This document shows positions 9,401-47,900 of a DNA stretch of 64,000 bases, piece by piece. Position 1 is the stretch's first letter. Each line of letters begins with the position of its first letter. Origin of the DNA: Pseudoips prasinana (taxonomy: Eukaryota; Arthropoda; Insecta; Lepidoptera; Nolidae); NCBI GenBank assembly GCA_951640165.1, contig OX621264.1, positions 253,001 to 317,000 on the forward strand, in the 5' to 3' direction. Made by a program: the position numbers and the translations under genes. The notes below the pieces were generated by a model that did no database searches, was not told the origin of the DNA, and saw only the letters and a program-made list of their open reading frames with translations.

Positions 9401-9682
9401 TAAACTTAAATGTGAATTATTTCCCAATATAGTCACTGCAGAACCCGAATCTAATAGGCCGTAGAGTGACAGATCTCCTACATTAATTGTAACATAAGGT
9501 CTAATATCAGAATCAGGTTTTTTGTCGAAGATTGTTGCAATAGAATACGTAGAAAAATAAATGTTAATAGTATTCAGCCAATTACGCCAATCTTTTATAT
9601 CAAAGTTGGTAGATTTTTTTATAAAAGATGAAGTGCAACAACCTTCGCCAACTAGTTTTTTTGACCAGGACCTGATTGACAC
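6431..9682 (-). CDS. pol: Ty3 element Pol polyprotein (PR-RT-RNaseH-IN)
   Basis: 1083 codons. Aspartic protease motif LLDSGSAVT (near residue 77). RT: PWSSPILLTPKKDGK, then SSIYLSKAFWQ, MPFGLTNAPAT and FLDDIILIS. RNase H: VHTDASDYGIGALL and TDHSALKW. Integrase: His/Cys zinc region, D in SVDLVGP, D in VVLDNGKQF, E in NTVERYNK. It overlaps gag by 31 nt in the -1 frame, as expected for programmed frameshifting. The first RT catalytic Asp (usually IDL-KAF) is Tyr here (TAT at 8699-8701), so RT should be inactive although the frame is intact. Confidence 0.95.
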   Translation of the reverse strand: MSIRSWSKKLVGEGCCTSSFIKKSTNFDIKDWRNWLNTINIYFSTYSIATIFDKKPDSDIRPYVTINVGDLSLYGLLDSGSAVTILGNNSHLSLLSSSGLSVNSCDPLQSFVSAGGHKLSATGYINLPITFENQCHILRAYIVPTVTSSLILGVDFWKKFQLLPKFFGSISLGSYKDQSILSITQTATTLHSYNELDEIERESANNIIARFECISSEKVGLGRTHLVEHRIDTGNSPPIRQRYYRLPPAKLRIIIEELDDMLKLGVVEPCESPWSSPILLTPKKDGKMRFCLDSRKLNMVTRKDAYKLPYVSEILDNLRDARYLSSIYLSKAFWQTPIAEVDRDKTAFYVPTRGTFRFVTMPFGLTNAPATQQRLVDQIFSGPDFENSVFVFLDDIILISPNYQSHITLLTKVYEKLKSANLTINFEKSMFFRNELKYLGYIVNSKGLHVDPSKLEAIMNFPTPTNKKEVKRFLGTASWYRRFVPNFSSIADPLNKLTSTSKKAASFTWSKEANDAFIKLKDCLISAPILSCPDYNKPFEVHTDASDYGIGALLTQTVDGVELPIAYMSKSLSAQERNYSITEREALAVLAAIEHWRCYLDNGLKFTVYTDHSALKWFLNLSNPTGRLARWGVRLSAFNFDVKHRRGADNIIPDALSRACPISAIDSDLTASQTTDPWFLNIYNGCQTSAASFPNYFIKDGKLYRLMKAKCSLRKEFEWKEVIPAELRTNIIAENHSEPTAGHFGVFKTYKRVALRYYWPGMHRAVVKFISACDSCVSHKHPNHAPLGEMGRPKICSRPFQTISVDLVGPLPPTRTQNVYIFVITCCFSKYCLLFPIKRATAEVITSILEEKVFLVHGIPSTVVLDNGKQFISSTLKNMLSKYKVPNLHYTPKYSPHVNTVERYNKTIMTAVSTFIENDHRVWDRLLPQIQFAINSAVNEVTGYTPSFLVYGRELVSCGSHYIDAESEEIIYQPRDSYADNLGYLSNIFDKVHFNLLQAHSKNCHSYNLRRRVAEFDVGDIVWKKTFYQSDKDKYFNKKLAPKFIKCKVIAKKSPLVYELADMADNSLGSWHIKDLKLINYKE

Positions 9683-11007
9683 TTAGGGCAGTCCGGGTAT
9701 ATAACATTTTTAAGCCCACATTTAAAACAAACCGGATACTGTCTTAGCGAATGCTCATTAGTGCGACAGCGCGGACAAAAAACGTACCTAACTGTAGAGG
9801 AACTAGGTTGAGAATTAATTGCATCTATTGGTCCACTCGAACCATATTTATAATCTTTGTGGCAAATATAATTATTATTATTAGGCATGTTATAATTGTT
9901 TTTGAAGTTATTATAATTAGATCTAGAAAAAGTAGGCTTCGATTCAGCCTTTACGTAAGCTAAATCAGGATAAGTATTATGAGATGGCTTGGGAGGTTCG
10001 TGGAACTGAGAAGAAAGAAACTGTACTTTTTCATAATTGAGACACAAGGCACGAAGTGTCGCAATTGAGTCCACCTCAATGATGCAGGATGCCAAAACAC
10101 TCATATAGCATGGCCGTATGTTATGCATTAAAATATTTAATTTTTCCTTCTCCGTGATGTCAGCAGATAATCGAGAGAAAAGTTCCGACATTATGGCTAA
10201 GTATATAATAATACTCTCAGATTCTCCCTGTGTCCTATTACGTATTTCAGACAAAAGTTTATATTCGTAGTCAAAAGGACTGAAGTCTACTTTTAATTGT
10301 TGAATCAGTGCATCCCAAGTAGTAACGGTATCCCGCACACTACGGAACCAATGAAGTGCATTACCAGTAAATATCTCCGAAGCGCATATTAATAATCTTT
10401 CTGGGGGTAGGTTCCTAGCGGTCCTATACTCGTGTATGCGCTGTATGAACGCGCGCACGCAGCCCGTGCCGTCGTATTTAACCGGACACAATTCCTTTGT
10501 GTACGAGTGATCGCACTGCACTGATAAGACAGATGCGCCGTCGAGTGAAGAAGACGACTGTGCACAATTAGTACGCACGGATGTGGCAGTTTGAGCAGAG
10601 TCGGGTTTCTTTATTGTTAATAGTTTGGCAGATAGCTGCTCAAATTCTTTCACTAAATTGTTTATTTTAGTAACAAATGCTGTATCAGACCTATCAACAC
10701 GTCGTAACCGATGGTAAATGTGATTATGCAAAGCGGTAGTGCGCTGAAATAAGTCATACTCATATTTCAGCGACATGGAACTAATACGCGTAGTCAGCTC
10801 AGTTAAAGAATTTAAAATTCCTTCACAATCAATAGCAGGTTCGAGTCCTGATTCAAAAAGATCATCGTCCGGTATTAATGTTATTATTTTAGGTATTTGC
10901 TTACGCAAAGATATCACACTAGAAGCCGGTTCTCCACCTCTAATTAGCACCTCGTACGTCAGTTCATTCTTATTAAGCAGATAATATTTTATGGGGTGAG
11001 ATTCCAT
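9652..11007 (-). CDS. gag: Ty3 element Gag
   Basis: 451 codons from ATG at 11007. Capsid-like helical centre (IHEYRTARNLPPERLLIC, then LHWFRSV, as in retrotransposon gag capsid). The C-terminus carries two Cys-rich clusters (CPRC...C, then CFKCGLKN...CPKC) in place of a canonical CCHC knuckle. The last residues overlap pol in another frame. It assembles the element's particles and binds its RNA. Confidence 0.9.
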   Translation of the reverse strand: MESHPIKYYLLNKNELTYEVLIRGGEPASSVISLRKQIPKIITLIPDDDLFESGLEPAIDCEGILNSLTELTTRISSMSLKYEYDLFQRTTALHNHIYHRLRRVDRSDTAFVTKINNLVKEFEQLSAKLLTIKKPDSAQTATSVRTNCAQSSSSLDGASVLSVQCDHSYTKELCPVKYDGTGCVRAFIQRIHEYRTARNLPPERLLICASEIFTGNALHWFRSVRDTVTTWDALIQQLKVDFSPFDYEYKLLSEIRNRTQGESESIIIYLAIMSELFSRLSADITEKEKLNILMHNIRPCYMSVLASCIIEVDSIATLRALCLNYEKVQFLSSQFHEPPKPSHNTYPDLAYVKAESKPTFSRSNYNNFKNNYNMPNNNNYICHKDYKYGSSGPIDAINSQPSSSTVRYVFCPRCRTNEHSLRQYPVCFKCGLKNVIYPDCPKCQSGPGQKN

Positions 11008-11503
11008 CTTATGATTACTAAAGAAACAACAAAATTAACTAGGTACAAGGTAGAACAATATACCGCATCCAAACACTATCAGTCTGTTCTTTACAAGATT
11101 TCTTATTCCTAACTACGATTCGGTGTAATAATCACAACAATATTCTAAACCAAGTAGGTAAACAGAACTATGATTAGGTACTTACGTTTCCGATGAAAAT
11201 TAGCAGTAATGTTGATTTTAGGTCTAACGCGAACTGTTACGTATTTAACTTACATTTAACAATTTACTTATGATTTACTAATTAACAACTAAAATTATAC
11301 TCGCCTACACATCACAGAGTAGGTAAGCAAAGTATTTACTTTAAAAAAATACGTAACAATTAACATACATGTAGTAGAAAGTATTAGAATAATATAAAAC
11401 GTACCAGTTCGCTGATGTGAAAAAACACCTCCTCGTTCACAATAATTACTATGTAGTTGTAAGCTGCAAAGCAAAATTATAATCGAAGCGATTGGCAGTA
11501 AGA

Positions 11504-14639: not shown

Positions 14640-14835
14640 AAAATATGTATAGTCTCATAAATGGGAAATCATAAATTTAATCGTCCGGCGGGTCTCGAAC
14701 CTGCACCATCTACCAATCCGGGGTAGGCGCTCTACGTTAAGCTACGAACGATACACGCTGGCAGATAAAATTTACGATTCCCTTGCTAACACCCTTCTGG
14801 AGGATGTAGGTATTATCTATCGGCTTTGTTTTCTA
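14640..14835 (-). repeat. SINE family S4, minus copy
   Basis: Inverted relative to 15570-15775. The tRNA-like head carries the B-box GGTTCGAGACCCGCCGG and the A-box-side CGTAGCTTAACGTAGAGCGC. A second partial head lies immediately downstream in plus orientation (14836-14935), making a head-to-head pair. Confidence 0.65.
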
Positions 14836-25000: not shown

Positions 25001-28000
25001 AAGTCTAATATTTTTACTACATATTGTCAATGGTTCTGTCTATATTAAGGTGTTATTATTATGACGGACCTTGTGTTAATAACGACATTGTATAGCAAAG
25101 TCTCCTCTGTGTACACAATGCGCTCCCCGTTGGGGCGGGATAGGAAACCGTGCTTTCTCACCGTACTTGGACAGCAAATGACAACACCAGCACGCTCTGC
25201 GCGTGTTGGTGTAGTGGCCAGTGACCCCGACTGTAAGCCAGTGGTTGGGGTTCGAACCCCACCCAAGACATATCGTTGTGTGATGAGCACGATTATTTGT
25301 TCTATGTCTGGGTTTATTAATAATAATAATAATATGTTTATTCACATCTCACAAGGAATTTAAAAATAAATATATCTAGTTAACAATTTTCGTTGCTATA
25401 AATCGGTCCTTGTGAGAGTCTTGTGAGAGTAATCGGTCCTTGTGTGTGTGTGTGCGTGTGTGTGTGTGTGTGTGTGTCTGTGTGTGTGTTTGTGCGTGTG
25501 TGTGTGTGTATGTCTGTGTGTGTCTTTATTTGATGTGTAATATGTATGTATATAGAAATACATTAGGTTGGGGAAAAAGTCTTTTCGCATTATAGTATGT
25601 ACTAGCTGTGCCCCGCGGTTTTACCCGCGTTAATCTTTATAAATTATCCCAGCTCCTCGCCCGTAGGTGATAGCGTGATAACATGTAGCCTATATGTTTA
25701 CCCGACCTCTTAGTAATATACCATACCAAAGATGTGAATTAGAGTTGAATTATTCATACAATAGCTTTCAACTAGAAAATGTCAAAGAATTTAAATTATT
25801 AGGACTTGTAATAGATACAAATTTAAACTGGAAAGCCCATATCGAAGACATTACTTCAAAATTATTGAGATTTGTGTATGCCTTATATGAATTAAAGAAA
25901 AGTACTGATTTAAAAACTGCTATGTCAGCTTACTATGCCTATGCTCACTCACGGCTGAACTATGGTATTATTTTGTGGGCTAATAGTGTTGAGGCTGGGA
26001 AATTATTTATTTTACAAAAAAATTGTCAGAATCTTAGCAAATATAGATTCCATGAGTAGGTAGTAATTGGGGTTCCTGGATCAAAATAGATCCAGAAACA
26101 CCCAATTACTCCCATTATTCAGTATATTCAAATTCAAAAGTCTTGTTCTAATAAATGTATAAATCTATTTCTTAGAATAACTAAATTGTCGTGATGGCCT
26201 TTTTACACAAACTAAAATTTGTTGCTAGCATTTGTTTCTTATATATTTGTATGAGGAAATATACTCATTATTCAGTCTATTCAAGATAGATCTAATTCAA
26301 AAATTATTATCGAATAATTCTATATAATTTTACGGAATATTCCTCTTGCCTGCAGCATTTTCAATAGCAATATCTCTCGTAATAGATTTAGATTTCTTCT
26401 ATTAGGTCTAAAAGACTGTTATCAATTCTTATTATTCGAGCCCATAACGTGAACCCCTCATAGTGAATTCTGGGGTATACACCATCTCCTCGTTTGCAGG
26501 GTAATAATATACCACTATATTGTTCATGATTTATAATATTTACAATATGAAGTCCACACAGTCGCTTTTCTACTATTATTATCTGCACCCGGTCTCCAAT
26601 ATTCAATGTCATGGTAACTAACTAGCACAGTACATTTATTTTATTTGTTCCTCATATTTATACTGACTGACTGAGACTTCTGAGTTAGATGAAATGGGGG
26701 AAGGAAATATGAAAAATAAAAAAGGGGATATTTATTTAAAAAATTTATTATCATAGCACCATTTCTTTAAACACAAAACATTTTTTAAAGCACATATTGA
26801 ATCATGATACATGCAGCTGTACAAATCATCAGAATTTAAATAGCGATCATATAGACTTAACAAATTAGGACAATTTTTATCTTCTAAATTAATTACATTA
26901 TTAGACCTTAAAATACCTTTCAACCTAATTCACATAAATACATTTGACCTTTATGATGTGAGATTTGACATCTGACTAGACGCATTAGATTTTTTATCAA
27001 ACAATAATGACCTTTGTTGTCGGTTTCAAAATACAGCAAGTTTACGTGGTCCATCCTCTTAGTACTAGTAACATATAGAGGACCAGTAACTTTATGGTGC
27101 CTGTCTAATCCATAAACATTTACACTTATTCCACAATTTTTTTTTTCAAACAACTCAATATCTTTATATGAGGGTGGAAATGACATCCCCTCAATATTAA
27201 ATATTGAGTTTAAATTCGGATATGAGCTTGGTCTACAGACATTATTTTTCTTGGGGAATAATGCTGCAGCTATACTCCACAAAAAACAATAATTATCATT
27301 ATTCTGTATATTTATGCAACTTTTTGTATTCTTAATTTTCTCAGGTAAGTCGATATAAGATCCTCCCCGCATGGGAGAGTACTTATTAATATTTATTTCC
27401 AAGTGACAAAAAGACATCAATGACCATCCAGATTGACAATGCTCGAATTCCGTCAATTTCATTTTATATGTCTCCTTTACACGGGAAAACAATTCATCAT
27501 AATCAGTATTTTGGTATACGGTTTCATATTTAGTATTAAATGACTTCAATTGCTTTTCACCTGTTGCGGGTAGCATAAAATAGGCAAACAACTCGAAGTT
27601 CACTTTAATACTGATATGTTTCAGTATAGTTAATTCAATTAGTTTTAATATATCGACTCGCTTTCCATCTAAGAACGCCTCTATAAAAAGGTACTCGTCT
27701 TCTTGAGATGGATGTAAGCGATATGTCATGATTCTGTTTTTGAATGCTGTGGCAACAATATCAACATTTTCAAACTTTGTCTTTATTAAACTATTTGATT
27801 TATGAATATTAGTTCTCTTATGATATCTGTATTCATGTTCTGGAATCTCAATATTGCATTTATCACAATTAATATAAGTGCTTGATTGTGAATTAGAAGA
27901 CGGTTGAACTGCAAAGGAAAAATGCGATTGAATGGCTTTGAATATTTATTTAGAAAGATTAAACAATGGATAACATAAGTATATTAAATTATATAATGAT

Positions 28001-29950
28001 TATAATTTTAATATTACCGATTAATAGAAATAAATTTTACAACTGTTTGTAGTATAATGACAGTTATAATAATATTTATTATTATTGATAGGAGCTAATA
28101 AATGTAGGAGGGCAGTTCAAAAACTCTTTTTTAACGCACTTAATATACGTATTTAAATGACTCCAAGACTCGGATTCTGTTTCACACTTATTTTTTATAG
28201 TAATAATCGAGTGCCGCCATCTATTAACCGGTGGCACTCGTTCAATATCTTTACAATTATAGATTTTCATCTCAACATAAAAACCGCCTTTCTTATTATC
28301 ATAAACTTGTCTGGAAAAACCGTTCGCAAGTCTACGAGTAACATATGAAGAGATCGGGTGATGTTTTTTACCAGTTGCCTCCAGTTGTTCGTCTCCAGAG
28401 TCACTTCCAAACAAGTCACTGCACGTTGGTCGCGTCGCTGACTTCAATCTTTTGCTGGTGGAGGGCTGACACTCAGTGCTTCTCTGCGGGGACTTGCGCT
28501 TCCTTTTTTCTGTCTTGGTTTTTATTGAAGTTTCTGGTCCTGATTCATCTTCAGACGGGAAAAGTTGGTCTGCATTATGTTTGGACCTAAAGACAAAAAA
28601 AAACATATTTAGTATATTATCTTAAAAATTATTAGAAAACTGGATAGTTCCCAATTTATAATTATTAAAAACACATTAAAATAGCTACATAATATTCAAT
28701 TCAATAATAAAAATAAAGTGAAAACTTTGATGGATTGAAATGAAAGATAGAAACGAATGACTAAACAGGTGAATTATCGAATAGTTTGAATAATAAATGG
28801 AAAGTGTAAACTTTGAACAGGTGAGTAATTAAAATGAATAATTGAAACGAATGATTAAATAATTGAATTATTCAATAGTCGAATAACAAAAAGAAAGTGA
28901 GAATTTTTAAACAGTTGAATGATTGAAATTAATGAAAAAAAATAATAAATCAAAAAAAAAACAAAAAAAAATCAAAAAAATTGGATATACTTACATTTTT
29001 ATGTTTGTAGATTGCTGCTGTGAAGATCTGGTATACTTTTTGTGAACTTGTAGGATGATCTCGCTGGCTCTCCAAGAAGTGATTTGTGGTCGAACTTTCG
29101 CATCCCGGCTTTTAAATAGCTCAAAATACACGTCATATTATCCCGAATATGGAATAGGACACGTGTAAGATGTTAAAACGCTGAGTAGATTGCACCACAC
29201 ACACACATAAATTGTACATTGTCAGCAATATTGAAATATGTATCTACATTGCACTAGTACATTATAATATGCGACTGTGTCAAACAAAAGAGGATAATGT
29301 GTTTTTTAACTTTATAGATGAAAGTTTTTTCGAAATATTCTGGTAGTATTATTTATTTTACAATCATGTCAATATTATAATAGTGAAAATTTGTATGTTT
29401 GTTACTCATGTACGCAAAACTGCGCAATATGAATGAAATTGAGCTCACACATAAGTTATCTATCTAATCTGTATTAACCTAGGGATACGTATTATCCCCC
29501 TCTTTAATAGACAGGCAAAGCCGTAGTAACTATTTTTTGTGTAATTACAAGTTTATATATGTCTATGTCTTTAGAAGTTAAGTGGATGGAAAGAAAAAAA
29601 ACATTATTTGAAATGAAGCATAAATAGCAGGCTAAAACCGGGTGCATAAACTAGTACGTTAATTCTGTCTATCTTAATGTCACTCCTAATAAAGAATTAC
29701 TTGCGTTGCAGATTTATTCTCAATCATACACTAGTTACATGCAATGACGTTGCTTGTTGAATATTTTTAATAATACACATACAATGAACAAATGAAGTAG
29801 TTTTAATTTTATGTAGCTAATATTATAAATATGAATGTTCGTATGTTTAGATGCTAGAATGTTTGTTATTAATCATAGCTGAAATAGTTTTGAATTAATT
29901 TGATCAATCAAATAATTAAAAACATGGCTTAGCATATAGGAATAAAAAAA

Positions 29951-29998
<48 letters not shown>

Positions 29999-32900
29999 TA
30001 CATACAGATATATCATGCATAGACACATGTATAATTGAATAAAATCCATTATTTTAATAATTTTTAAATAATGCATAAATAGAAGGCTGAAGCCGGGTGT
30101 ATAAACTAGTATGTCAATATACCTCTTTGTTTTGATTGTCTCCTTATAAAGAATTACTTAAGTTGCAAAAATATCCTCAATGATATACTAGTTACATACA
30201 ATGACTTCACTTGTCAATCTTCTCAATAAAATGTATGAACAATTTTACAATGAACAAATGCACAGTAATATTTATTTTATTCATAATGATTATAGTAAAC
30301 AATAAAGTCTTCGGCACCAGTCTGTCGCGATTATCAGGTTTCAATTTCTTTCACGCATACCTTACCATATTTGTTCTTAGCAACGTGTAACTAAAAAATA
30401 TGTTTTGGATTTTGAACTCTATAGATTTAAAAAAAAAATATATAAAAGGGGAACAGTAATATCTAAAAATTCATTATTTTTCTTGCATTTGAGGCTCATA
30501 CGAGGTAGATCGTTAATCACATTATGTCGGTAAGTCTTAACACCTTGTTATTAAAATACATTTTATTTAATAATTTTATATATTTATTTTAATTGATAAT
30601 ATAGGATATAATTTAGCAAGTAAATAACTAAATATCTGATGTTTCTATTTTATCTATTATACTTAATTATATGTTTTATCTAAAATATATAAATAGGAAA
30701 AAAAATGGTGTATTAATTTGTAATTATTTTACTTTTTCTAGGACGTGGAAGAACAACTATTTAATTTCATACCTATGGAAGACCCAATAGCTCAAAAAAA
30801 ACCTGGACAGAAGTCGCTTGGTCTTTCTCGTAAGAGGCAGAGAACCGATCAAACATTTTTCCAATATATAAAGAAACCGGTCACCCGAGGAACAAAAATA
30901 ATAAAAATCGAAATATATGATGCAGAAAATTTTCCCAAATCCGAACAGCCGATGTGCAATTGTGAAGCTGATGTCTGTGTTCAGCATGTTGTTAAAGCAA
31001 TATTATTCGATGATATATACTCCACCACAAGAGAATTAATAGCAAAAATTCAAGATGACATCGAACCAAAAGCATAGGAATTATATTAAGCTTCGTGTGG
31101 TTATTTCAATTTTGTATTTTTGTTTTCCTTTATTTCTTTTGTTTTGTATGTATATATTTACCATAAGTTTTTTTTTTATTTTTTATTTTCACTAATATAA
31201 TATTTAAGTTAGTAGATATAGATATAGATAGTTTATGTGTACTGAGCTACTACATTCATTAATATTAATAAATTAAATAAATAATAATTCGATGAATTAC
31301 TTTTAATTCTGTAGAAGTAATTCTAACCTAAACAGCGTTATTCTGCCTGATAATAATGTACATTTTCGTTTACTACTGAAAAAAAATACACTTCGCATTG
31401 CTGTTCTAAGATTATCACCGTATTACCAGTAACGCCTCTACCTACACCATCGAGGTAAAAATGTGAGTTTGTGTATTTAATATTCATAGTTAGTACAGTG
31501 GACTCTCATTATAGCGCTCTTCATTTTATCAAAACTCCGATTCGATTGGTGTTACTGAAAATTGAATTTTATTATTATTATATCGAGTAACATTATATTA
31601 CTTAAATATAGTTTTATAATAAATACATGACATTCAGTAAATAATGTTTATTTAGAAAATGTTACTATATCGGGCACTCACTGTATAATGTACGAAATCC
31701 CCTGCACTATAAATGTAACGCAGCGGTGAGCACAAATGCATTCCTTTATCATCAGGTTACCAGGTTGAATAGATTGTATCTAATTATATTCAATTGTACC
31801 TACTCATTAGTATTTGAATAGTTGAATGATAAAAATTACATGAGAGATGAAGATACTCATTTATACTGAACACTGAAATGAATAAGAAATAAATAAAAAG
31901 CTAAAGTTTGTGTGAAGATTCAATCCGATAATTCAATCATTCTAAGAAAAGGTTCAAATAATTAAAAACATGGCTTAGCATATAGTTTCATGTAATATAG
32001 TTAGTTTAATACAGAACAAGAATGTGAATAGGCTAAATAATGAGAGTAATTGAGTGTTTCTGGATCTACTTAGATCCTTTACCTTACATAAATATATAAG
32101 AAAGAAATGTTAGCAGCCAACTTCAGATTGTATGAAGGTACAGCACGACAATTCAATCACTCTAAGACAAACTTTAAAATATTTTAGAACATACATTTTG
32201 AATAGACTGAATAATGGGAGTAATTGGGTGTTTCTGGATCTCTTTTGATCCAGGAACCCCAATTACCACCTACTTCCATGGAAAGCTGTCGACCGTATTT
32301 TGTTAAACTCAACATCCTTACACTCACATGTATGTATATATTGGAAACGTGTAAATTTGTAAAAAGCCACCCATCATTATTCCCCCTGGCGAGTAGCCAA
32401 CGACCGCATCAACGCAGCTGTAGGGATCCAAACAAACTAGCTATACCCGCCTCAAAATTTGCCATGTTTCATTCTGGCCCCTATGCCATGAGCGTAAAAA
32501 TATATAATAAATTACCAGACAAAATAAAAAATATTGATTTTGAAACTAAATTTAAACATGAACTGCAAAAATATTTAATACAAAAATGTTATTATAACCT
32601 AAATGAATTCTTACAAAATAGATAGATAATTAAAATAATACCGACGCGTTAACGTAAATATAATCTCAATAACTTTTCCTTCCTACTGTCTCACAATATT
32701 ATTAGAATCGAAATACCATAAATTTAAATAAATTGACGAACATATATTTGTATTATTATTAATTTATCGTACCTTATATTGCTATGACTACTTATTTACT
32801 TTTATCACTTATTGAAATATGTACTTATAATGTTAACTAGAATTACGATCTGACCTTAGAAATAACTATTTATATTGTGTTGTGTTGCTGTGCCCTAACA

Positions 32901-35900
32901 GGGTTCATGTTGGAAACAAATATACCTGTAACAAAGATTCAAAGATTTTTATTGCGGACTAAGTGTTACAGAGGGTCTTAAAATTACGGTCAAACTTATA
33001 ACTTAGTCGCCTTATCAGGCATAGCAACAACACATTCTAAATAACATTTGTGTACTTATATTATGATGTCATTTTACAATAAATATTTTATGCTATAGAT
33101 TATACACTATTACTAAAACATGTCGGTCACATAATATTATTAAATTACAAAATTATTTAATTAAATTATTACATTAAACTTAATAATTACCTACTTTAAA
33201 TTATTACATTGATATTACATTTGATACATTTAGCATATGAATTCATTGACTGTATAGAAGCATTTCTCTGTTAACCATTTTTTTAACGTCACTTTAAATT
33301 TCGTTTCAGTCAGCTCTCGTATATGCTTAGGAATTCTGTTAAATATTTTTATTATCATACAGATACGATTTCTTTCAAATAATGTAGTTGACATTTTTGG
33401 CAGCAGTAGTTTAGTTTTGTCCCTAGACAAATATTTTTTATTTGTGCTCACTTCTTCAAACAAATTTTGGTGCTTTTTTACGAACATGCCAATTTCTAGA
33501 ATGTATAGAGAAGTCAGTGTCAATACTTTTAATTTTCTAAATAAGGGTTTACATGAGTCTAGTGGACCAGCACCACATATTGCCCTAATGCATTTTTTTT
33601 GTGAGATAAAGCTTTATTTATTTCCGTTGAATTACCCCATAGAAGTAAACCATATCTCAGGATAGATCCCACGTAGCCATGATAGGCAACTAGAGCTGTA
33701 TTTTCGCATGTTATTTTCCTGACATTTTTCAGTGCAAATATAAACCGATTTATCCGTGCACATACTGATTTGACATGGGGTTTCCAATTACAATGATTGT
33801 CTAATACTATACCTAAAAATTTTATTTCATTAATTTCTTCTATTTCTTTATCATTATATTTTAGATTAATCTTACGAGGTATACTATTATAATTTCTAAA
33901 TTGTATATATTTCGTCTTATCTACGTTAACGGTTAAATTATTTTCGCTAAGCCATTCTGTAACTGTTTTGACTGTATCGTTTAAGATATATTCATATGTT
34001 TCTGGGCTATAAATTTCGGGTACTGTTATCGAAATATCATCGGCAAAGAGAGTACATTTATGTGGTATAATTTTCGGTATATCGTTTATATAAAGTAGAA
34101 AGAGTAGTGGCCCCAATATACTTCCCTGGGGAACACCAACTTCATTCAACTTGTGAACCGATTTATATGTAGATAAGGTCTGGTTTTCATCAATCCGAGA
34201 AATTTGTACATATTGATTGATTGATTGATGAACACCTATTGTAAACCCATGAAAATAGCAATAAATAAATAAATAAATATCCATGCAGTACTTTTTAAGT
34301 TTAGCCCGGACATACATGCAGACAAACAGACACACAGACAAAAATTCTAAAAACTATATTATTGGCTTCGATATCGATTGTAGATCACGCCCCAAGTATC
34401 CTTTAAAAAAAATATTCAATGTACAGTTTTGACTTTCCTACGATTTTATTATATGTATAGATGAACTTGTTATAAAATCTCTCTGGCTATACTATTTGTA
34501 TCTGGCTGGTTTTGGTATCATTGAAAGTTTGAATTTTAAAGAACATTCCAAATTCAAATTAGGAAAATGTGTGATTTTCATTTGTTTTTCGTACTTTTAA
34601 GATGAGTGTATCTAATGACAATTCGATACATTTTAAGGTTTTATAATAAAATAGGTATCAATGCAACGCAAGCCGCGAATAATTTTTGCGCGGCTTAACT
34701 CGCAACAAGGTGATGCTGTGTGTGTGGTGGGATTGGAAGGGCATTATTCATTATGAGCTGTTACCACCAGGCAGGACCACTTCTGATTCTGAACTCTACT
34801 GCGAACACTTATGAGATTAAAGCAAGAACTTGAGAGAAAGCGGCCGGAATCAATCAACAGAAGGGGTGTGGTTTTTCATAATGATAACGCTAGACCTCAA
34901 CACATCTTAAGAGGCCTATTACAGTCCACTAGCGCCGCCAATCGAAAAAATGTCATAACTAGTAAATAGAATCAATAATACAAAATGTGGTCTATTATTA
35001 CTGTAGAAAAGGCAATAACGTAATTTTATAACACATTGTCAACACTTGAAATATAGCTGTTTAGCTAAATCGTGCATTTGTAACAAAAACGGCCGTTTAT
35101 GTTTTGAATGCACGATTTAGCTAAACAGCTATATTTCAAGTGTTGATAAGGTGTTATACAATTAATTGCCTTTTCCACAGTAATAATAGAACATATTTTG
35201 TATTTTTGATTCTATTTACGAGTTATGACATTTTTTCGATTGGCGGCGCTAGTGGACTGTAAAAGGTCCCTTAAACCACTCAGCAGAATATATAGTCCTG
35301 ACCTTGCACCTTCAGATTTCCACCTGTTTCGGTCTCTTCAGTATTCTTTAGGCAGTGTCAGGTTAACATCACGAGAGGACTGCCAAAACCACTTGTCGCG
35401 GTATTTTGATCAGAAGTCCCAAAATTTCTATAGCAAAGGTATCATGTCCCTACCTTCAAGACAGCAAAAAGTTATCGAACCAAATGGTACCTACAGTGGG
35501 ACATGTCGTCAAACATGCCTCAACAGTACAATCAGTAAAAATGTACAATAAATTGCCTGTACAATTAAAAAATTCCATGACTCCAAACGATTTTAAGGGA
35601 AAATTGAAGTCACTGTTGTTGAGGAAATGTTATTACAGCATAGAAGAATTTCTCAAAGATAAGCTCTAGCCTCTAGACACAAAAAGTACTGTCTACAGTC
35701 AAGTTCTGCAATTAAATTGTATTTTATAATTATGTTACTTTTTAGTGAATTTAATTGATTATTATTTATTGATCTGACCAGAAATTTTATAATTGTTATT
35801 TTAACTAACTCATGACTACTCTTTCTAATTTAACTGTAATTAACATTTTTATAGAATTATTTAAATTTGTGTGTAATTTTTTAATAAATGATGACATTAT

Positions 35901-38900
35901 TTTTAAATTATTTGTATTGTAAATTTTAATTGTGTATTTTATTTATGTGTGCAAATTCAGATACAAATTATTTTGTTTTTGAATAAATGACTAAACGTCA
36001 GTCATGTCAATTGACAAGGATCTTTATGAACGTGACTGACATTTGTGGGAGGGCGACACTGTGAGATCAAGGGTTGCTTTTAAGAAAATTCCCAAATATT
36101 ATGGGAAAATTTAAAAATGGCAATGACTGTATCCATTCTATTTTGTATCAATTCAAAAACCAGTTAGGCCAACTGGCCCGTCTAAGTTATACTTTGAAGG
36201 GCCAGATGGCCTAACTGGTTTTTTTTATCCTACTCAGGACAGATATTTGTGTGAACGTATATGTTTGTTTGTCCTGTAACTGGGTGTTTATCTATATAAG
36301 TATGTATTTACTAAAGTAGTATTTGTAGTATATCAGCTATCTAGTTTCCATAGTACAAGCTTTACTTAGTTTAGGATCAGATGGCCCTGTGTGAATAATG
36401 TCCCAGGAATATCCAACTCTTAAAAGATTATTAAGTACTTCATATATTATCGATTGATTGTAATAAATAATTTGATAGCACAAGAGAAGAAAAGAGTCAT
36501 TTTTATCTGTATAGATAAAGGTCATTGGGCGAAATCTGACCCAGTTAACGATAGTTTTCCTACAAAAACCAAATTAGTTTTAAATTGTTAAGTATTAACC
36601 TACATTAAAATTTAGATAGTTTTTTTTTTAACCATGGGAATAAAATGTTAAAGATTAATAAAAAATAGGTAATAAATGTATTGGTAAAACAATTCCAGTG
36701 AAGCATTCTGTTAAATAAATAAACAAAATAAACGTTTGCGCGCTATAAGAGTTAGTGATGTTCAAATCTGCTATAAACTATAAACGTGCTATAGACTATT
36801 GAATATATTTTTATAGCATGCTATTTTATATGCTATAATTATAGCACGCTATAACAAACGCGATAGTCAACTGAACGTGGAGATGTCATCATTTTATTTT
36901 TAAAATCATGTTTACTATCAAAAAACCAATAAAAATTTACTAAACCTTGTTATAATAAACCTTATTATTGTATTTTTATTTTTTAGATATATGTTTTTTT
37001 CCCGTTGTCTGCGTTAATGCGACATATATATTCGTAAACTAGAGACGTTTATCTAAACATACTACCAATTTTTTTGTCTGTAGGCCGTGGGTATAGGTTC
37101 CATACTTAGTTGCCCAATGACCTTTATTTCTAATTTAATATTTCATTCGCAATACTGAATACTACATTAACGTAAGAAAAATTTATACACGGATGCGACT
37201 TAAAAATCAAGCATGGCAACTCGCTCGTTAACTTCTTCAAATGGACTTATCGGGCCTACATTTAATTTTCCTTCATGATAAACTCCTTAACCTTTAGGAC
37301 TGTTTCCCTGACATCGCTATAAATAATACAATAATAAACGTAGAAACAACAATCGGCAAAGCAAGCTGTGGCAGAACTGTCAAAGAGACACTTTGGAAGA
37401 TGGTGGCGTTAGTTCCACTTTCAGCCACGTTCATAAAGATCCTTGACGCACTATACATATATTAATTAAATGTAAATAAACTATATAAAAAAGTTTTGAA
37501 TTTTCTCCCTCTGCCTTAGATTAGTACTGTAATATAGTTTATGCTTACTAAGGGATAAACTTCTTAGAATTGTTTTTATGCAGATACAGCCGTCTCTGCT
37601 TCGCCGGATGTATCTGCCCGCTACTTTTATATTCCATTATTAAATCACCTCCAAATCGGTGTAGACGTATTATTTTATTTTAATTAATTTTAAATTTTAG
37701 TTTTTAAAAATCCTTTTTTACGTTCCCAAACCAAAAGTGGCGCAGCCCGTACCGGATAATTCTAATAACTTCGGCGAGTTAACATATTTTCTTTAGAAAA
37801 CCATAAAATTCGTGCGAATAGGGAATATCCGGCGAACCAAATAAATATCTTTTGTGATCAAGAAACGAAGAATATGGGAGTGGCAGTCGGTTGGTGAGTA
37901 CAACTTTTCGCCAATCCTTCTTTCCTTAACCTCCTATATTCCATAATAGGGTTTTTAAATGTATTTAATTGTTACAAATGAGATAAGACTTCGCTCAGTG
38001 TAACTTGTCGGTTGTCGCAGTATCAATTTCTACTGAGATAACGTTTGTTCTGAGAATTGAACTAAACCATAGATGTAAGAAAATACTAGAAGAGAGATTA
38101 TTTTATATTACTTTATATAAAAAATAAATATAATAACTTAATTGATCTTAAAATCGATCATAATTTAATATAAATTCATTTAATGTAAATTAATTAATAA
38201 AGGAATTTTCGTAAATTTCCTAACATTTTCAAAAATATATTATACTTTAATGTTCTATTTTATTTAATACTGTGTAATTAATGTTTGTTATATACTTGTG
38301 TTATATGTATGTGATAAACTTTTCATATAATTAGAATAAGCGTGTAACAGTTGCCTTCTCTGATTTATTTCGTACTCTTTGACCATGACATCTTTACAAT
38401 TGATCCCTAGAGAAATTATTCAATTAGTACCATTGTTTAATGGGGATAAAAGGCAATTAAACCTATATCTTCGAAAATGTGAATATATAATCGAAAGATA
38501 TAATTCGAAGGATAATGAAGAACAAAATTTATATATATACAATGTGTTAACTAGCAGACTTACAGAGAACGCAGCTGCCCTCTTATCAGAACGTGAAGAT
38601 ATTGTTACGTGGACTAGTTTAAAAGAATTACTTATCCAACATTTTGGCGACCCTCGTAGTGAAGTGTGTATTAACATAGAATTAGAATCATTAAAAATAA
38701 AATCCGGAGAGAGTTTCCTAGAATTTTGTAATAGAATCCAAAGTGTTCGGTCATTATTAATATCGAAAGTGAACTCTATCGAAGATAGCGACTTAAAGCG
38801 TGCCAAATTAATTATATATAATAATACTGCTCTAAATGTTTTTTTATACAATCTACCGTAAAACATGGTACGGATAGTGAGATTGAAGGCTCCTGCGGAC

Positions 38901-41900
38901 TTAGAAAGCGCGTTAAGTGTTGTACTTGAGGAAGTTCATTTCCAAGAACAATACTCGATGCGGAATCGCATACACGGTAACACGTCCCACATTAATTCCA
39001 GTGCAAAGCAAAGTTTTACACAACCCTCTAGTTTTAGACCCATGATACCAAATAATAGCGCAACCCCTAAATTTAATTTCGGTACCCCACAAAATATGGA
39101 CACGGTTCGACCACAAATGTTCGGATCGAAACCTCAACTGGGTTTTCAGCCGAAACAACTAAGTAGTCCTCAGACCCCACAGTTCGGATACAGACCCCCT
39201 CAACAGTTTGGATATAGACCCCCTCAACAGTTCAGATATAGACCCCCTCAACAATTCGGATATAAACCACCCCAGCAGTTTGGTTATAAACCACCCCAAC
39301 AGTTTGGCTATAAGCCACCCCAACAATTTGGAATGCAACAAGTAAGTAAGTAACCGACGTTTCAATGCGGACAGTCGCGCCTAAGCCAAATATTCAGCAA
39401 GGTTTTAAATTAAATTAAATTACTACAGACGATTTCGACTATTCTTATAATGACAATAGTTATTACTACGACCCTTACACTTACGATGCAGATGGATTAG
39501 ACCCTTATACTACATGCGAAAATAATATGGAATTACGATACGATGATGACTCTGAACAGACTGACGTACCCGAAATTACGGATTTTCCCGAAACAGCCTC
39601 TATAGACAAGAAGTCCTAGAACTAAATTGTGATCCAAATTTAAAACTTCCACACATTTACTTAGAGGAAATAGACGGTAAAATGATGATTGACACCGGAA
39701 GCATGCGGTCATTCATTAGTCCCCAAAAAGCCTACCAGTATTTTGGACAATTTATTCGAAAAGAACCTTTCCAAGTTATTAGCACCCACGCATCGAGTAG
39801 ACATGCGAAGTTATGGACATACCTCTCTTGCCTACTTTCGTTAGTGACGATTTTCATAAATTTTATTTATATGACGTTGATATAAACTATGATGGACTGA
39901 TCGGAAATGACCTCTTGCAACAACTAGGCGCAGTTATTGACTTGAAGAACAAAATTTTAAAGACAAATACAACTAGCATACCCATAATTAATAATAATTT
40001 AAACTACATTATCGATATACCTGCACGTTCGGAACAACGCGTTATTGTCCGTATTGCCCACCGATCAACACTCAGGTCAAGCTATCCTTGACTATCAAGA
40101 ATTTGCACCAGGCCTCAGAATGCCTAGTGCCATAGTAAATTGTACAAACGGCTATGCTTTAACAGTTATCCAAAACACCTTAGATGAACCAAAACGATTA
40201 ACCATTACGCAACCTTTTTCAGTTACTGAATTCCATAATACCGAAATTCCGATTAACTTTACAAAATCTGAAACTGACATAGACACGGATAGACTTCTTG
40301 ACGAAAATTTATCTAAACTACGACTCGACCACACCAGTGACGAAGAACACTAAAAAATATTACAGCTCTGTCGCGAGTATAAAGACATATTTTACTGCGA
40401 TCAAATTCCTTTATCTTTTACAAATCAAGTTAAACACCGCATACGTACTCAGAACGAAGATCCCATATATGTAAAACCATACAGACAATCTCCATTTATA
40501 CAAGGTGAAATTAATAAACAGGTTGAAAAACTATTAAAAGACAATGTAATCCGAGAATCCCATTCACCATGGAGCGCACCTGTGCATCTCGTGCCTAAAA
40601 AGACAGATGCATCTGGTGAAGTGAAGTACAGAATGGTAATAGACTACAGACGACTAAACGACATAACGATTGATGACAAATACCCTTTACCCAACATTAC
40701 TGACCTATTTGACAAACTTGGAAAAAGTACTTACTTTAGCACACTTGACTTGGCTAGTGGATATTATCAGATAGAAGTAGAAGAACAGGAAAGACAGAAG
40801 ACTGCTTTTAGCACACAAAATGGACATTTTGAATTTTTAAGAATGCCATTCGGTTTAAAAACAGCGCCCGCAACGTTTCAGAGAACAATAGACAACGTTT
40901 TACGCGGACTCCAAGGAATCCATTGTATAGTATACTTAGACGACATTATTATCTACTCTAACAGCTTAGAAGAACACATATATAAGCTACGAACTATCTT
41001 TGACAGAATTAGAGAGACTAACCTATTAGAATTAGAATCATTAAAAATAAATATAAATACAACTTGACAAATCCGAATTTCTCAGGAAAGAAGTGCTTTA
41101 CCTTGGACACACTATTACTAAAGACGGACTTAGACCTAATGACGACAAAATAAATGCTGTACTGAGATACCCTTTACCCAAAACTACGACGGAGATAAAG
41201 AGTTTTCTTGGACTTATTGGCTATTATAGACGTTTTATTAAAGACTTCGCAAAGGTAACACAACCGTTAACAGCCTGCTTAAAGAAACGTAATCGCATTG
41301 TAATTGACCAAAATTACATTAACTCTTTTGAAAAATGCAAAGAACTTTTAACACACGCCCCTCTGTTACAATACCCTGACTTTGACAAAACTTTTTATAC
41401 TGACCACTGACGCATCAAACGTAGCGCTAGGCGCAGTACTTTCTCAGGGACAGATTGGTAACGACAAACCTGTGGCATATGCCAGCCGTACATTAAGTGA
41501 TACCGAATCACGGTATAGTACAATCGAGCGAGAATTACTTGCCATCATTTGGGTGGTTAAACACTTCAGGCCCTATCTGTATGGTCGGAAATTTACTATT
41601 TATACCGACCATCGTCCATTGACATGGTTACAATCATTAAAAGACCCCAGTAGCAAGCTTACGCGATGGAGATTGCGTTTGCAAGATTATAATTTTGAAA
41701 TTATTAACAAAAATGGAAAACAAACTACCAATGCGGATGCCTTATCTAGAATTAAAGTAAATGCCTTAAGTTCAGACGACGAGGATCAGTCTATGGTAGT
41801 AAACATCGACGAAAAAGACCAAAAGCTAAAGAAACATTTAGACGACGTAGTTACAGAAATAGAAATGTTAACATCAGAAAAAAGAGCAAAACGAAATGAC

Positions 41901-44900
41901 TCATCAACGATAACAATATCAGACTCTAGTGAAACGTTAACAGCTAGTCCTATGCTGGAAAACTTGTCTAGTCCCAATTACCCCGTTAGATCAGAATCCA
42001 GTAGGTCACAGACAATACATTCAGCTCAAGATTTAGAATCAACAGGAATACCAATTTTACACGAAGCAATTGATACAAAGCCTAACCAGATTATAGTATA
42101 CTCATGGTTTAAAAATGATATGCAAGTTAAAAATCTATCAAGAGAAAAACAAAAGGTATTAGAAGTTTTCTTACCCACAAATAATCCCGATTTAGTAAAA
42201 GAATTTTTAAAGCAATACGTAAGACCCAAGGTTAAATACTTTATCTATTTTGAAGAAAAAGAGCATCGAAAATTATTTAGCAATTTAGTTATAGAACTTT
42301 TCAAAAAGAATATGGTCCAATTATTTGAGTGCACTGAAAGAGTAATTTTTATTGAGGATGAGAAAGAACAAAAAGCAGTAATAGAAAAATATCATAAAGG
42401 TAAGACATGCCACAGAGGTATTAAGGAAACATTAGTTAGAATTCGTAGAAGTTACTATTGGGATAGAATGCAAGAAACAATTACAGCAATTATAAACGCG
42501 TGTGAAGCATGCCAGAAGATGAAATACGACAGAAAACCTATTAAACCCGTTTTACAGTTAACACAGACACAACATGCCCCATTTCAAGAGATTTTTATAG
42601 ATACTTTTAGTATAGAAGGGAAAACTTATTTGACCCTTATTGACGCATTTAGCAAATTAGGACAGGCAATAGAGATACAAGGAAAATCAACTCCAGAGGT
42701 AATAAGAGCCTTACTAAAATATTTTTCGTGCTACGGTATTCCTAGAAAAATTAGTTCGGATCCGGGAACCGAATTTAACAATGAACTCATTAAAGAATTT
42801 TTTAAATTTCCATAAAGTAGAACTTCATATCGGTACACCGAATAATCCAAACTCAATGGGTCTTATTGAGCGGTTCCATTCCACAATCATTGAAATTTAC
42901 AGGTTAGCCAAATATGAAAAGCGATGTACCGATGCGGCATCGGTCATGACATATTCAGTTATGGCATATAATCATTCTATTCATTCTGTTACTGAACTTA
43001 CTCCATTTGACTTCCACTGTCTGTGTGTCCGAATACAATTGTATTCGGACACACAGACAGTGGAAGTCCATATAACGTAGAATTTGAAAAACGTTATTTC
43101 CAAAAACTAGTTAAAGATCATGCAAAACGGACGAAAATTTTATATGAGAATTTAACGGAAAAGATGATAGGCACTAAAGAAAAGATTCGCGAAAAGAGAG
43201 GTGGTGAAGTAATATTTGATTTTCCCGAAGGAAAAACTATATTTGCCAAAGACACAAACAAACGTAAGAGCAAGGACAAGGCCAGATATATAAAATCAAA
43301 AGTAGTAGGTGAAACAGATAGAAATATTATACCCATACAGATAGGAGACAGGATAACAAAAGTCCCTCTTAAAAACGTCAAACGTCCTCCACAGGTGGTG
43401 CAGCATACTGCTGGTAGCGATCCCGGCGCTGGCCCTTCGTCTGCAAAACCTTGACGGAAATCCGGGGATACTACCGGTAAAAGAAGGTGAAGCTTACATA
43501 CAGACTGACCAATGGACTATAATCAAGATTAAAAATTAGAAAACATTTATAATCATTTAAAAGATGTTTCAGCTAATTATGAGCATTTATGTAAATTAAT
43601 TAACTGGAATGAATCGTATTCACATGACATCAAAAACTTAAAACTACATACAGAATTAATCCAAGATATTACAAAAGACAAATACCGCCAACTTGTACCC
43701 CAACAGCGTTTTAGAAGAGGCATTTTAATTCCTTTGGGTTCTCTTATTAAAGTTGTCACCGGGAACCTTGATCATGATGATGCGATAAGATTTGATAGAC
43801 TCATCTCAAAATTAAATAATAATCAAATTATGATGTCAAAAAAACTAACATTGGTATCTAAAATGTTTGATAGCTTTATAAATACGTCGGAAACTATTAA
43901 TCAGAATACTATACAATTAGATAACCGCATACAAAAACTTGAATTAATATTAAGAAATTTAAGTGCTAAACAAGATAATTGGATTTTTATAACATGTATT
44001 TTTGGATTGTTCAATATTCTCATAAGTAGTTTTCGTACAATATTTATTAGACTAAGTGAACTTGAAACTACCTTAGCATTAAGTAGGGTGTCCATATTAC
44101 ACCAGTCTGTTGTAAACTCCACAGAATTATTATATTTCTAAATCAGAGAACTTATTGTATGCTCCAACCGAGAGTAATTAAATTAAATTAGAAGAAACTA
44201 TTTGTGTAAAATCATATATTAAAGATAATCAGATTGTATTCATAATGGAAGTACCATTAATAGATAACTTTACATATGATTATTTTAAAATGTATTCATT
44301 ACCAATTTTCCATGAATCCCAAAACAAAACCCTATCTATTTTCCCTAAATATCCCTACCTTTTTGCGAAAGGTGAAAACTACTTACCGATTGTCAAGCCG
44401 TGTCGCCTGTTATCCGCTGGTTCCAGCTTCTTATGTAATGAAGACAGTCGAGCGTTATACTATGAACGTACTTGTATAGAACAACTGATGAAGTTTGAGG
44501 ATGACCTCACCTACTGCACGCAGCACCTAATACTACTCGAAGAGGTCAAGGTGCAAAGAATCAACTCTGACAGTTGGATCCTATATAGCAGATAAAGACT
44601 ACACTGACAAAATATTGTGGCAACGAAATCCGGAAACAGCCCATTTTTGGCACATATCTCATGACTATCGACGAGCCATGTGATGTTGAAATCAATGGAA
44701 TTCGGATGGGACACCGTGTGATTGAAGAATCAGACGAGGTGGAAAACATCCCTTTGATAACTCTACCGCAGTTACCAATGAACATCAATATATCAAGTGC
44801 ACGCGCACTTAACATGCAAGGAATCAACCTAGATGAGTTGAAGTATATGGAACATTCGTTAAAAAATAGTGCAGTGCTTGAAAGTGTTTTAGACGAAAGA

Positions 44901-47900
44901 AATGATTACAGTTTAAGTGAAAATTTAGGATATGTGTCTGTAGTTTTAGTCATTTGTATTTTTCTTATCTTTTTACTGTATGTGTTTCGTTTAAAATTAC
45001 TGAAATTTGTTTGTGTTAAGCAAAATTATCAGAATAAATCTAAAATCGATTCAACCGATAATTTTACTCTTAAGGAGTAAGAGTTATGGATACACCTCGC
45101 CCCTCTGCCTTAGATTAGTACTGTAATATAGTTTATGCCTACTAAGGGATAAACTTCTTAGAATTGTTTTTATGCAGATACAGCCGTCTCTGCTTCGCCG
45201 GATGTATCTGCCCGCTACTTTTATATTCCATTATTAAATCACCTCCAAATCGGTGTAGACGTATTATTTTATTTTAATTAATTTTAAATTTTAGTTTTTA
45301 AAAGCCCTTTTTTACGTTCCCAAACCAAAAGTATGTGTAAGTTGTCCCAATATATTTATTTATTTACCTTTTTATGGAAAAGGGTAAATAAATTAATATA
45401 TGTGCCAAGCATTCACTGTGTTCTGTCGGGAGACGCTCGAAAGAGACAGAGCTTTTAAATGGGAGGCAATCTTTTATTGTTATGAATATTCCAATTCTTA
45501 TTCTGCAAATAATAAATTTATACCATTGACAGTGACAGTCGATCGATCAGTCCAGTAATTGCGTAATACTAATAGATGAAGTCCACTTTTCCCGTAGATT
45601 TTTCTTGGAAGAGAATCGTAGATTCCTATGGTTTAAATTTATTATTCTCTGACTAAAATTTGATGTCATAATATTTTTACAAATTATTGCACTATCCAAC
45701 ACAACTTCATTATCAATAAAGCAGTAGTAGAAGCAATTCACACATATACACACAATTTTTTTTCTATTGAGTGGTATATACTAACAGTGCGAACAGGTCC
45801 GTGCAAGCCACTTTTTTTCAGAAAAGTGTTGAGCAGAATGTCTGGCTGCGCGTCCAGGTCTCCGCGCGCCGGGAGGCAGGCCGGCTGCACTCTGTCGCTG
45901 AACTGGATACTGGAACACACAACGACTCGAGGGTGATGTTGGTCGAAATGCGGCGCTCATCGTGCAACACGAGTTGTATGCTGAGCGCCGCCCCTGGGAT
46001 TATCGGCGGTTGGAGATGTGGAGCTCCCACTGCCATAAAACGGCGATCCCGGGAAGAACCTGCTGTAGCCGCGTATTGCGTGTTGGGGTAGCTAATCACC
46101 CCTGGGTAGAGCCTTGAAAAGGCAAAAACGCTATAGTGGTGGCTCTGGTGGTGATCGTTATGAGTTCCTTGAGTCACCACTCCATGCGTTGTGAAGCTGT
46201 CTGCCATGGTGGTTTTAGTGAGTATCCCGGGTGACTAGCGCGTCGAGTCCAACATAACCCGTCGCTTCCCCAAGCTGCGGGTATGCATAAAGCATTTCCA
46301 CCATGTAAAAAAAATGGTATCTAGTTCATGCTACCCACCAGACTAGGCAGGGGCTCCACCGGCTAAGTCGCCGAACATCGTTTTCGTGAATGGTGTTCAA
46401 ATAAATAAAGGTTAAAATGACTTAATCAATCGTTAAATTGGCTTCATGTGGCCACATGTGGTCATGGAAGCCGATTTAAGGATTGATTAAGTAATTTTTA
46501 ACATTTATTTATTTGAACGCCATTTACGAAAACGATGTTCGGCGACTTAGCTGGTAGAGCCCCTGAAGCGTCTAAGAAAATAAAGCGTAAACTTTACTTA
46601 CGGTGTATCTGTCTTCAACAGTGCGAGGTTGTGGTGGGGTTCACTGTACACGTACTCGGGGTGTACCGTGTTCTGTATGATCTCGTGTACTCTCCAATCT
46701 GCTTGAGGGTATCTAATGTCTTCCACACCCAGCGCGACGCGCGTTACATTGGGGCTAAACACAATAATATTATTAAAGTTGCTACCCAAGCATAGCCAGA
46801 GGAAAGTGCAAGTATGCACTCGCTTCAATAACACAAGCGCTGTTGCCTAACTGCTGACACCGCGCAACGTGCCGAAGACGACACCGGCATCGTGGTTCCC
46901 AGCATTATGTGAGAACGACTCACTTCTTGGTCGATCGCCGACATAGCTAGGTTATTGTTAGTAATAAGTACTTTTACATTGTAACTTTTATTCAGTTTAT
47001 ATTAAATTTAATTCGAACATAATTGGTTTTTTTAGAACCGCTGTAGCCAGGTTTCGTAAGTAAGTTAATTAAGAATAGAGGGTGTGTTAGCATAAATCCC
47101 ACTAATGCGTGCCGTATAACGAAGCTGCTACTTCGTTGTATGCTACGTCACGCACTGCACGGTAGGGCTAAAAATTGACGATCCCACACAAATGTAATAT
47201 TGTAACGGAATAAATGAATTACTGAATTGTTTGCCCAACTTCGCTATAAAGTCCCCCATGATCACAATGACATTAGTATTAAAGGTATGTATGGCTCTAG
47301 ATGCATTACGCCGGTGGCAGGCGTATGCATTCCCCCGCCTATAAATATACTATTGTAACGATTTTCAGGATCGCTGAAGTGTCACGTGGGACTTTGCCTA
47401 TATATATGGCGAGTCGACCGGTGCCTTTCTCTTTTGGGACCAGACATCGACGAGGGCGAAGCTCTGCTGGTTTACGTATCGATTAATCTTCAGTGTAATG
47501 TGCAGTGATTACCGTGTTTGTCGTTCGTGTATCTCAAGCTGTAGGCATGTGAGGGCAATAATAGAAAAGGAGGAGTTATGTGATGAGTTTTGGCGAATAG
47601 CTATAGGGATATAACTGGATTTGTTAACATTCATGATAAGGAGGTTTGAGTTGAGCCAATTTATCATGTGTCTTAAAGCTTATGCGCTATTTTGAACACT
47701 ATTCGGCACCCAATGCGGCCCGTGAACGGACAGTGCAGTGTCATCTGCGTATGAGAAGATGTTTGCATTGGGGAGCTTCATATGACATACGTCATTGTCA
47801 TAGATCTGGAAAAGAATTGGTGTCTGTATGCTTCCCTGAGGCACTTAATAGTTTATGTGTTCTTCGTCACTTAAATGTTGTTTTTTTACTCGTTGGCTAC

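Follow-up and report, generated by a model that had tools for sequence, protein, structure and literature searches.

Within a 64,000-nt stretch of the Pseudoips prasinana genome (contig OX621264.1, positions 253,001–317,000; hereafter the window), a mobile element of 6.2 kb interrupts the coding sequence of a LINE, and the locus raises the question of whether an element this short, with hairpin-forming ends and only a few genes, represents a lineage of its own. The original prediction suggested that it might, and described a non-autonomous or virus-derived, Polinton-like element with only accessory genes, among them the block that precedes the polymerase, that could not be matched to a described family. 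We find, with a probability of about 95%, that the element belongs to a young Polinton/Maverick family of its own genome and is a copy from whose interior about 8.8 kb has been lost. It represents a single internal deletion within a known kind of element, whose nearest counterparts are the Sf Mavericks of Spodoptera (PMC5803895). The earlier interpretation is thus partly supported, i.e. the Polinton-type and non-autonomous character is right, while an undescribed lineage is unsupported.

The terminal inverted repeats (TIRs) of the element form an alignment of 205 against 196 nt; its local score is 200, whereas shuffled pairs reach at most 40 in 200 trials. Their complementarity reaches 96% in the outer 78 nt and 73–78% in the inner stretches, and for this reason the TIR is set at about 205 bp and not at the 240 bp first proposed. 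Folded as single DNA strands, the 66-nt tips of the window copy, which is the copy that the folding covers, form hairpins that none of 200 shuffles equals in stability at either tip (z scores in Table 1); with 150 nt per end the folding is weaker (z −4.4, 0/200 shuffles, and −3.2, 1/200). The target duplication, predicted as 6–7 bp and written TTCCATG, comprises the 6 bp TCCATG, the seventh base being the last base of the element. When the element and one TCCATG are removed in silico, a single LINE frame crosses the empty site, as had been anticipated, and this rejoined frame aligns on both sides of the insertion site to a neighboring LINE at 33233–34353 on the minus strand (score 253). The left LINE flank proper aligns in a different frame (score 220), and an older frameshift in the LINE just upstream of the insertion is therefore indicated.

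Searches of the source genome (1.125 Gb, 56 contigs) reveal many further copies with the same ends. The left 246 bp has 47 matches (40 of 162 candidates scored), including 25 full-length ones without any difference, window included, and at least 40 full-length matches at 100% identity are listed for the right end (32030–32274, 245 bp; 40 of 163 candidates scored). The left 871 bp (26055–26925) is present at 99.2–100% identity in 17 of 20 fetched left-end regions, where all matches end at 26925, and the remaining 3, which carry altered left ends, match 26078–26925 at 99.8%. The right part is found, from 26926 to at most 29447, at 99.0–99.9% identity in all 29 copies compared, and 31398–32029 is matched in one rearranged copy. 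In these other copies, the sequence from 26926 onwards forms part of a type-B DNA polymerase (PolB) frame that lies about 8.8 kb further in. The 2 breakpoints share no base when the window is compared with one left copy and three right copies. A 121-bp query across the junction has a full-length match in the window only; of 176 candidates 40 were scored, and the 39 listed matches outside the window all break off at the breakpoint. Within the reach of this search, the short form thus arose once.

The arrangement of the other copies also shows what the deletion started from. Pairing 40 left ends (34 ordinary and 6 altered) with the listed PolB-front and right-end places, we find a PolB front inwards within 25 kb in 37 of them, and at 9.6–9.95 kb in 26. 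Only in the window does it lie 868 bp from the left end, and one copy (C29) has it at 4.8 kb through a different rearrangement (L014). Among the 27 copies with both ends paired, 16 are 15.0–15.3 kb long, and two fall below this range, at 11.5 and 14.3 kb. A perfect 6-bp target duplication flanks 9 of the 10 further copies for which the two ends are available (10 of 11 with the window), and no two of these sites share a 6-base target sequence.

A gene block of the kind that precedes PolB had been recognized in the element, and in other copies its residues 1–340 indeed sit within longer open frames, the longest having 1,190 aa. The 341-aa frame of the window has 135 matches in the genome. Counting the window, 58 of them reach ≥95% identity, and for 36 of the 58 the surrounding open frame measures 1,190 aa (counts tallied by hand from the match table); the other matches group at about 77, 60, 57, 53, and 50% identity. 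Because it ends one residue past the junction, the window frame would encode the front region only, and the exonuclease and polymerase parts are missing from it. In polinton polymerases, the catalytic part is reported to be preceded by a terminal-protein domain and by a cysteine protease domain of vOTU-like type (PMC11071308), and by analogy with that description the 341-aa frame may contain a zinc-finger-like motif and terminal-protein-like and vOTU-like regions. Residues C220 and H313 are conserved without exception in an alignment of 6 sequences that represents each subfamily once, which fits the vOTU-like domain reported in polinton PolB; the motif context and the same paper (PMC11071308) suggest that they could be the vOTU catalytic pair. 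The 341-aa frame has no OTU match in Pfam or PDB, and searches of both with an alignment of the genome copies yield a single match at E 0.44 plus four other weak matches, with OTU absent from all five; a single-sequence structure model of the frame is too poor to use (mean pLDDT 34). Separately, four PolB copies of the 57% group (G000:C32 4259240, 4497411, 5066518, and 6264822) lie on one 9.3-Mb contig with equal scores and a single TAA stop in every copy, as though they had multiplied once inactivated.

The genome also contains longer relatives in which integrase and polymerase-type frames are present. Loci L010 and L017 contain the same frames within their left 6.8 kb, and those of L010 include a DJR capsid protein (PF21738, E 1.8e-119), a retrovirus-type integrase (rve PF00665, E 2.3e-11, with a chromodomain match below the cut-off at 4.6e-05), a PLA2-like protein (Pfam E 3e-14), and an A32-type packaging ATPase (PF04665, E 7.9e-06), whose frame is cut by the end of the fetched locus. 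A 137-aa frame of L010 has weak matches, below the cut-off, to Ulp1/adenain-type proteases (PF02902, E 0.017; PF00770, E 0.044), and four L010 frames have no useful Pfam match. The copy behind L010 is itself not intact, since its PolB frame is only 504 aa long. A parent of this type would have integrated through its retrovirus-type integrase, in keeping with the 5′-AG ends and the 6-bp duplication, and would have been copied by protein-primed synthesis with its PolB; the window copy would be one of this parent type that has lost about 8.8 kb of interior at a blunt junction, either before or after its insertion. The window copy contains no integrase, capsid, ATPase, protease, or polymerase part, and could therefore move only with proteins from longer copies.

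Given that both ends and the target duplication of the window copy are intact, and that its remaining genes have plausible predicted promoters and splice sites, it might be asked whether a short, non-autonomous Polinton lineage with its own gene set is propagating in this genome. We consider this very unlikely. Its junction was found once among the matches scored, the remaining shortened copies have lengths and structures of their own (the 11.5-kb and 14.3-kb copies and the rearranged L014 copy), and the PolB frame stops one residue past the junction instead of reaching a natural end. The many near-identical copies also make a misassembly conceivable, in which a full-length copy was wrongly shortened, but the LINE flanks with their clean target duplication and the 2–10 mismatches that separate the window copy from each of 29 other copies give such an artefact a similarly slim chance.

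The size of the element, its tip hairpins, and its PolB-type front also recall a separate small virus of about 6 kb with hairpin ends, bidnavirus- or densovirus-like, that integrated as a provirus, all the more so as bidnavirus PolB is thought to derive from Polintons and bidnavirus genome segments measure 6–6.5 kb (PMC4061559). However, both sides of the junction match longer copies of the Polinton family, and on this ground we reject such a provirus, which is the least probable of the explanations weighed here, with next to no chance of being correct. In addition, the same source reports bidnavirus termini without hairpins, and neither a parvovirus-type capsid nor a superfamily 3 helicase has a Pfam match in the 341-, 179-, and 111-aa frames or in a 77-aa stretch, these being the four frames scanned (the remaining ones, of at most 94 aa, lay outside the scan).

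Several points weigh against an origin by deletion from a longer Polinton. The DNA searches scored 40 of 162–176 candidates each, and positions 29448–31397 of the window were compared with other copies only through the 111-aa frame at 30742–31074. Nine of the 27 paired copies are 16.0–25.6 kb long, with a composition outside the comparison, and the target duplication is absent from one of the 11 copies tested, a 16.3-kb copy (C24). The polymerase part has no match in Pfam, NCBIfam, or PDB, and in PHROGs it has a weak match to endonuclease VII (0.0017). A frame at L074:3–1403 contains what look by eye like type-B polymerase motifs, with no Pfam match at E 0.1. The name PolB is thus a tentative assignment, which draws on these motifs, on the endonuclease VII match, and on agreement in size and order with the Sf Mavericks.

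Among the genes of the window copy (Table 1), TATA-like boxes and consensus splice sites are predicted for the 113-aa gene (plus strand) and the 168-aa gene (minus strand), in line with the promoters and introns first noticed on both strands, and the 341-aa frame is preceded by a predicted splice acceptor. Full-length copies of the main exon of the 113-aa gene number 57 with that of the window, 48 of them at 100% and 9 at 99% identity (all 126 candidates scored). It also has diverged homologues, mostly at 32–48% identity, and in a comparison of neighborhoods by eye several of these lie within ~5 kb of the PolB fronts of other groups, while none is near the 77% group, where the exon may be absent or too diverged. 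Neither the 168-aa gene (searched as its enclosing 179-aa frame) nor the 74-aa ORF can be assigned convincingly to a family in Pfam or PHROGs, the latter giving only weak matches to families of unrelated or unknown function, and searches of viral contigs with three frames and a six-sequence alignment find no relative.

Table 1. Coordinates of the element, its parts, and its surroundings in the window, and of altered left ends elsewhere in the genome.
Feature	Position	Strand	Remark
Whole element	26055..32274		6,220 bp; 5′-AGTAGGT ends
Target duplication TCCATG, left copy	26049..26054		6 bp
Target duplication TCCATG, right copy	32275..32280		
Left TIR	26055..26259	+	~205 bp
Right TIR	32079..32274	−	~196 bp
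Left tip hairpin	26059..26112		z −6.5
Right tip hairpin	32217..32270		z −5.2
Inner second copy of part of the TIR, right end	32020..32077	−	begins at TIR base 24, near hairpin apex
LINE coding sequence left of insertion	25682..26054	+	frame alignment to neighboring LINE
LINE coding sequence right of insertion	32281..32622	+	frame alignment to neighboring LINE
Deletion junction	26925..26926		871-bp left end joined to 5,349-bp right part; no microhomology; ~8.8 kb missing
74-aa ORF, left end	26391..26612	−	TATA-like box 26655–26662; no Pfam match
C-terminal remainder (~63 residues) of 165-aa frame	26735..26925	−	cut by deletion; size of frame near Sf Maverick ORF8
Front part of PolB gene	26920..27908	−	ends one residue past junction
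Main exon of predicted 168-aa gene	28082..28586	−	predicted intron 28587–28994
Predicted 113-aa two-exon gene	30524..31077	+	predicted TATA-like box 30441–30449, ATG at 30524; intron 30530–30741
Altered left end, G000	C10:28433316-28433735		
Altered left end, G000	C7:4814452-4814871		
Altered left end, G000	C6:21806941-21807360		
Altered left end, G000	C6:2024878-2025297		
Altered left end, G000	C4:38624086-38624505		
Altered left end, G000	C2:32332470-32332889		

The family to which the window copy belongs appears to be young. An alignment of the right part of the window copy with 29 copies contains 165 substitutions over 70,846 bases (0.23%, gaps left out, with 101 openings). Over the 1,020-bp PolB front, the 29 copies diverge from one another by 0.067%, 192 of 406 pairs being without substitution. 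The 29 are the best-scoring matches and thus biased towards similarity, and as the stretches differ the 2 percentages are only roughly comparable. Together with the 58 near-identical PolB fronts, 36 of which lie in full 1,190-aa frames, this low divergence suggests that Polintons multiplied here in a burst not long ago.

Six copies differ from the others at their left end, which starts with the right-type repeat and continues with the left repeat from base 24. In the three of these that were fetched (L024–L026), the left end equals the right end of the window for 221 nt and is left-type thereafter, and target duplications are perfect in 3 of 3. Most simply, a switch of strands within the inner segment common to both ends would have copied the right end onto the left on one occasion, and the altered element would have multiplied afterwards; ordinary gene conversion would leave the same pattern. 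We tentatively suggest, as a possibility with the odds rather against it, that the hairpins, the doubled right TIR, and the six altered ends are footprints of strand switching from one end to the other of a single-stranded or panhandle replication intermediate, and that the changed ends remained competent for integration. If true, this would provide genomic evidence for the protein-primed cycle that has so far been inferred for Polintons. The window element is an ordinary deletion derivative; the end variants of its parent family bear on Polinton replication.

Other features of the window lie outside the element. Two long overlapping open frames of 1,083 and 460 aa, possibly a retroelement, are present at 6434–11034 (minus strand), a series of frames at 38364–45077 (plus strand) looks retroelement-like by eye, and a tRNA match at 14680–14751 (minus strand; Rfam RF00005, 37.5 bits) may mark a tRNA gene or the head of a SINE.

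Among known systems, the Bidnaviridae (Bombyx mori bidensovirus) have a PolB that derives from Polintons and includes a terminal-protein part and an inactivated vOTU-like part (PMC11071308), next to a parvovirus-type capsid protein, a helicase, and termini reported as hairpin-free (PMC4061559). The window element lacks the capsid and helicase genes and is a fragment of a Polinton. Closer to it are Sf Maverick 1 and 2 of S. frugiperda (PMC5803895), as the longer copies share their gene order and have genes of similar size, a likeness judged by sizes and order. The sizes in Sf Mavericks and here are 305 and 321 aa for ORF2, 310 and 314 aa for the integrase with chromodomain, 258 and 292 aa for the PLA2-like CAP, 133 and 137 aa for the protease, 148 and 145 aa for ORF6, 404 and 402 aa for ORF7, 158 and 165 aa for ORF8, and 1162 aa for PolB against the 1190-aa frame; the Sf ATPase has 228 aa, its counterpart here being the one cut by the end of the fetched stretch. 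In contrast to the Sf Mavericks, the window copy is without the genes from ATPase to ORF7 and without most of PolB and ORF8, and the 113-aa gene beyond PolB lies outside the nine ORFs given in Table 2 of that paper. With Polintons/Mavericks in general and the Eupolintoviridae (formerly Adintoviridae; PMC12451622), the window copy and its relatives have the 5′-AG ends, the 6-bp target duplication, and the inverted repeats in common, and the longer copies add the integrase, the DJR capsid, and a PolB-type frame. Through its deletion, the window copy measures 6.2 kb where those longer copies measure about 15 kb.

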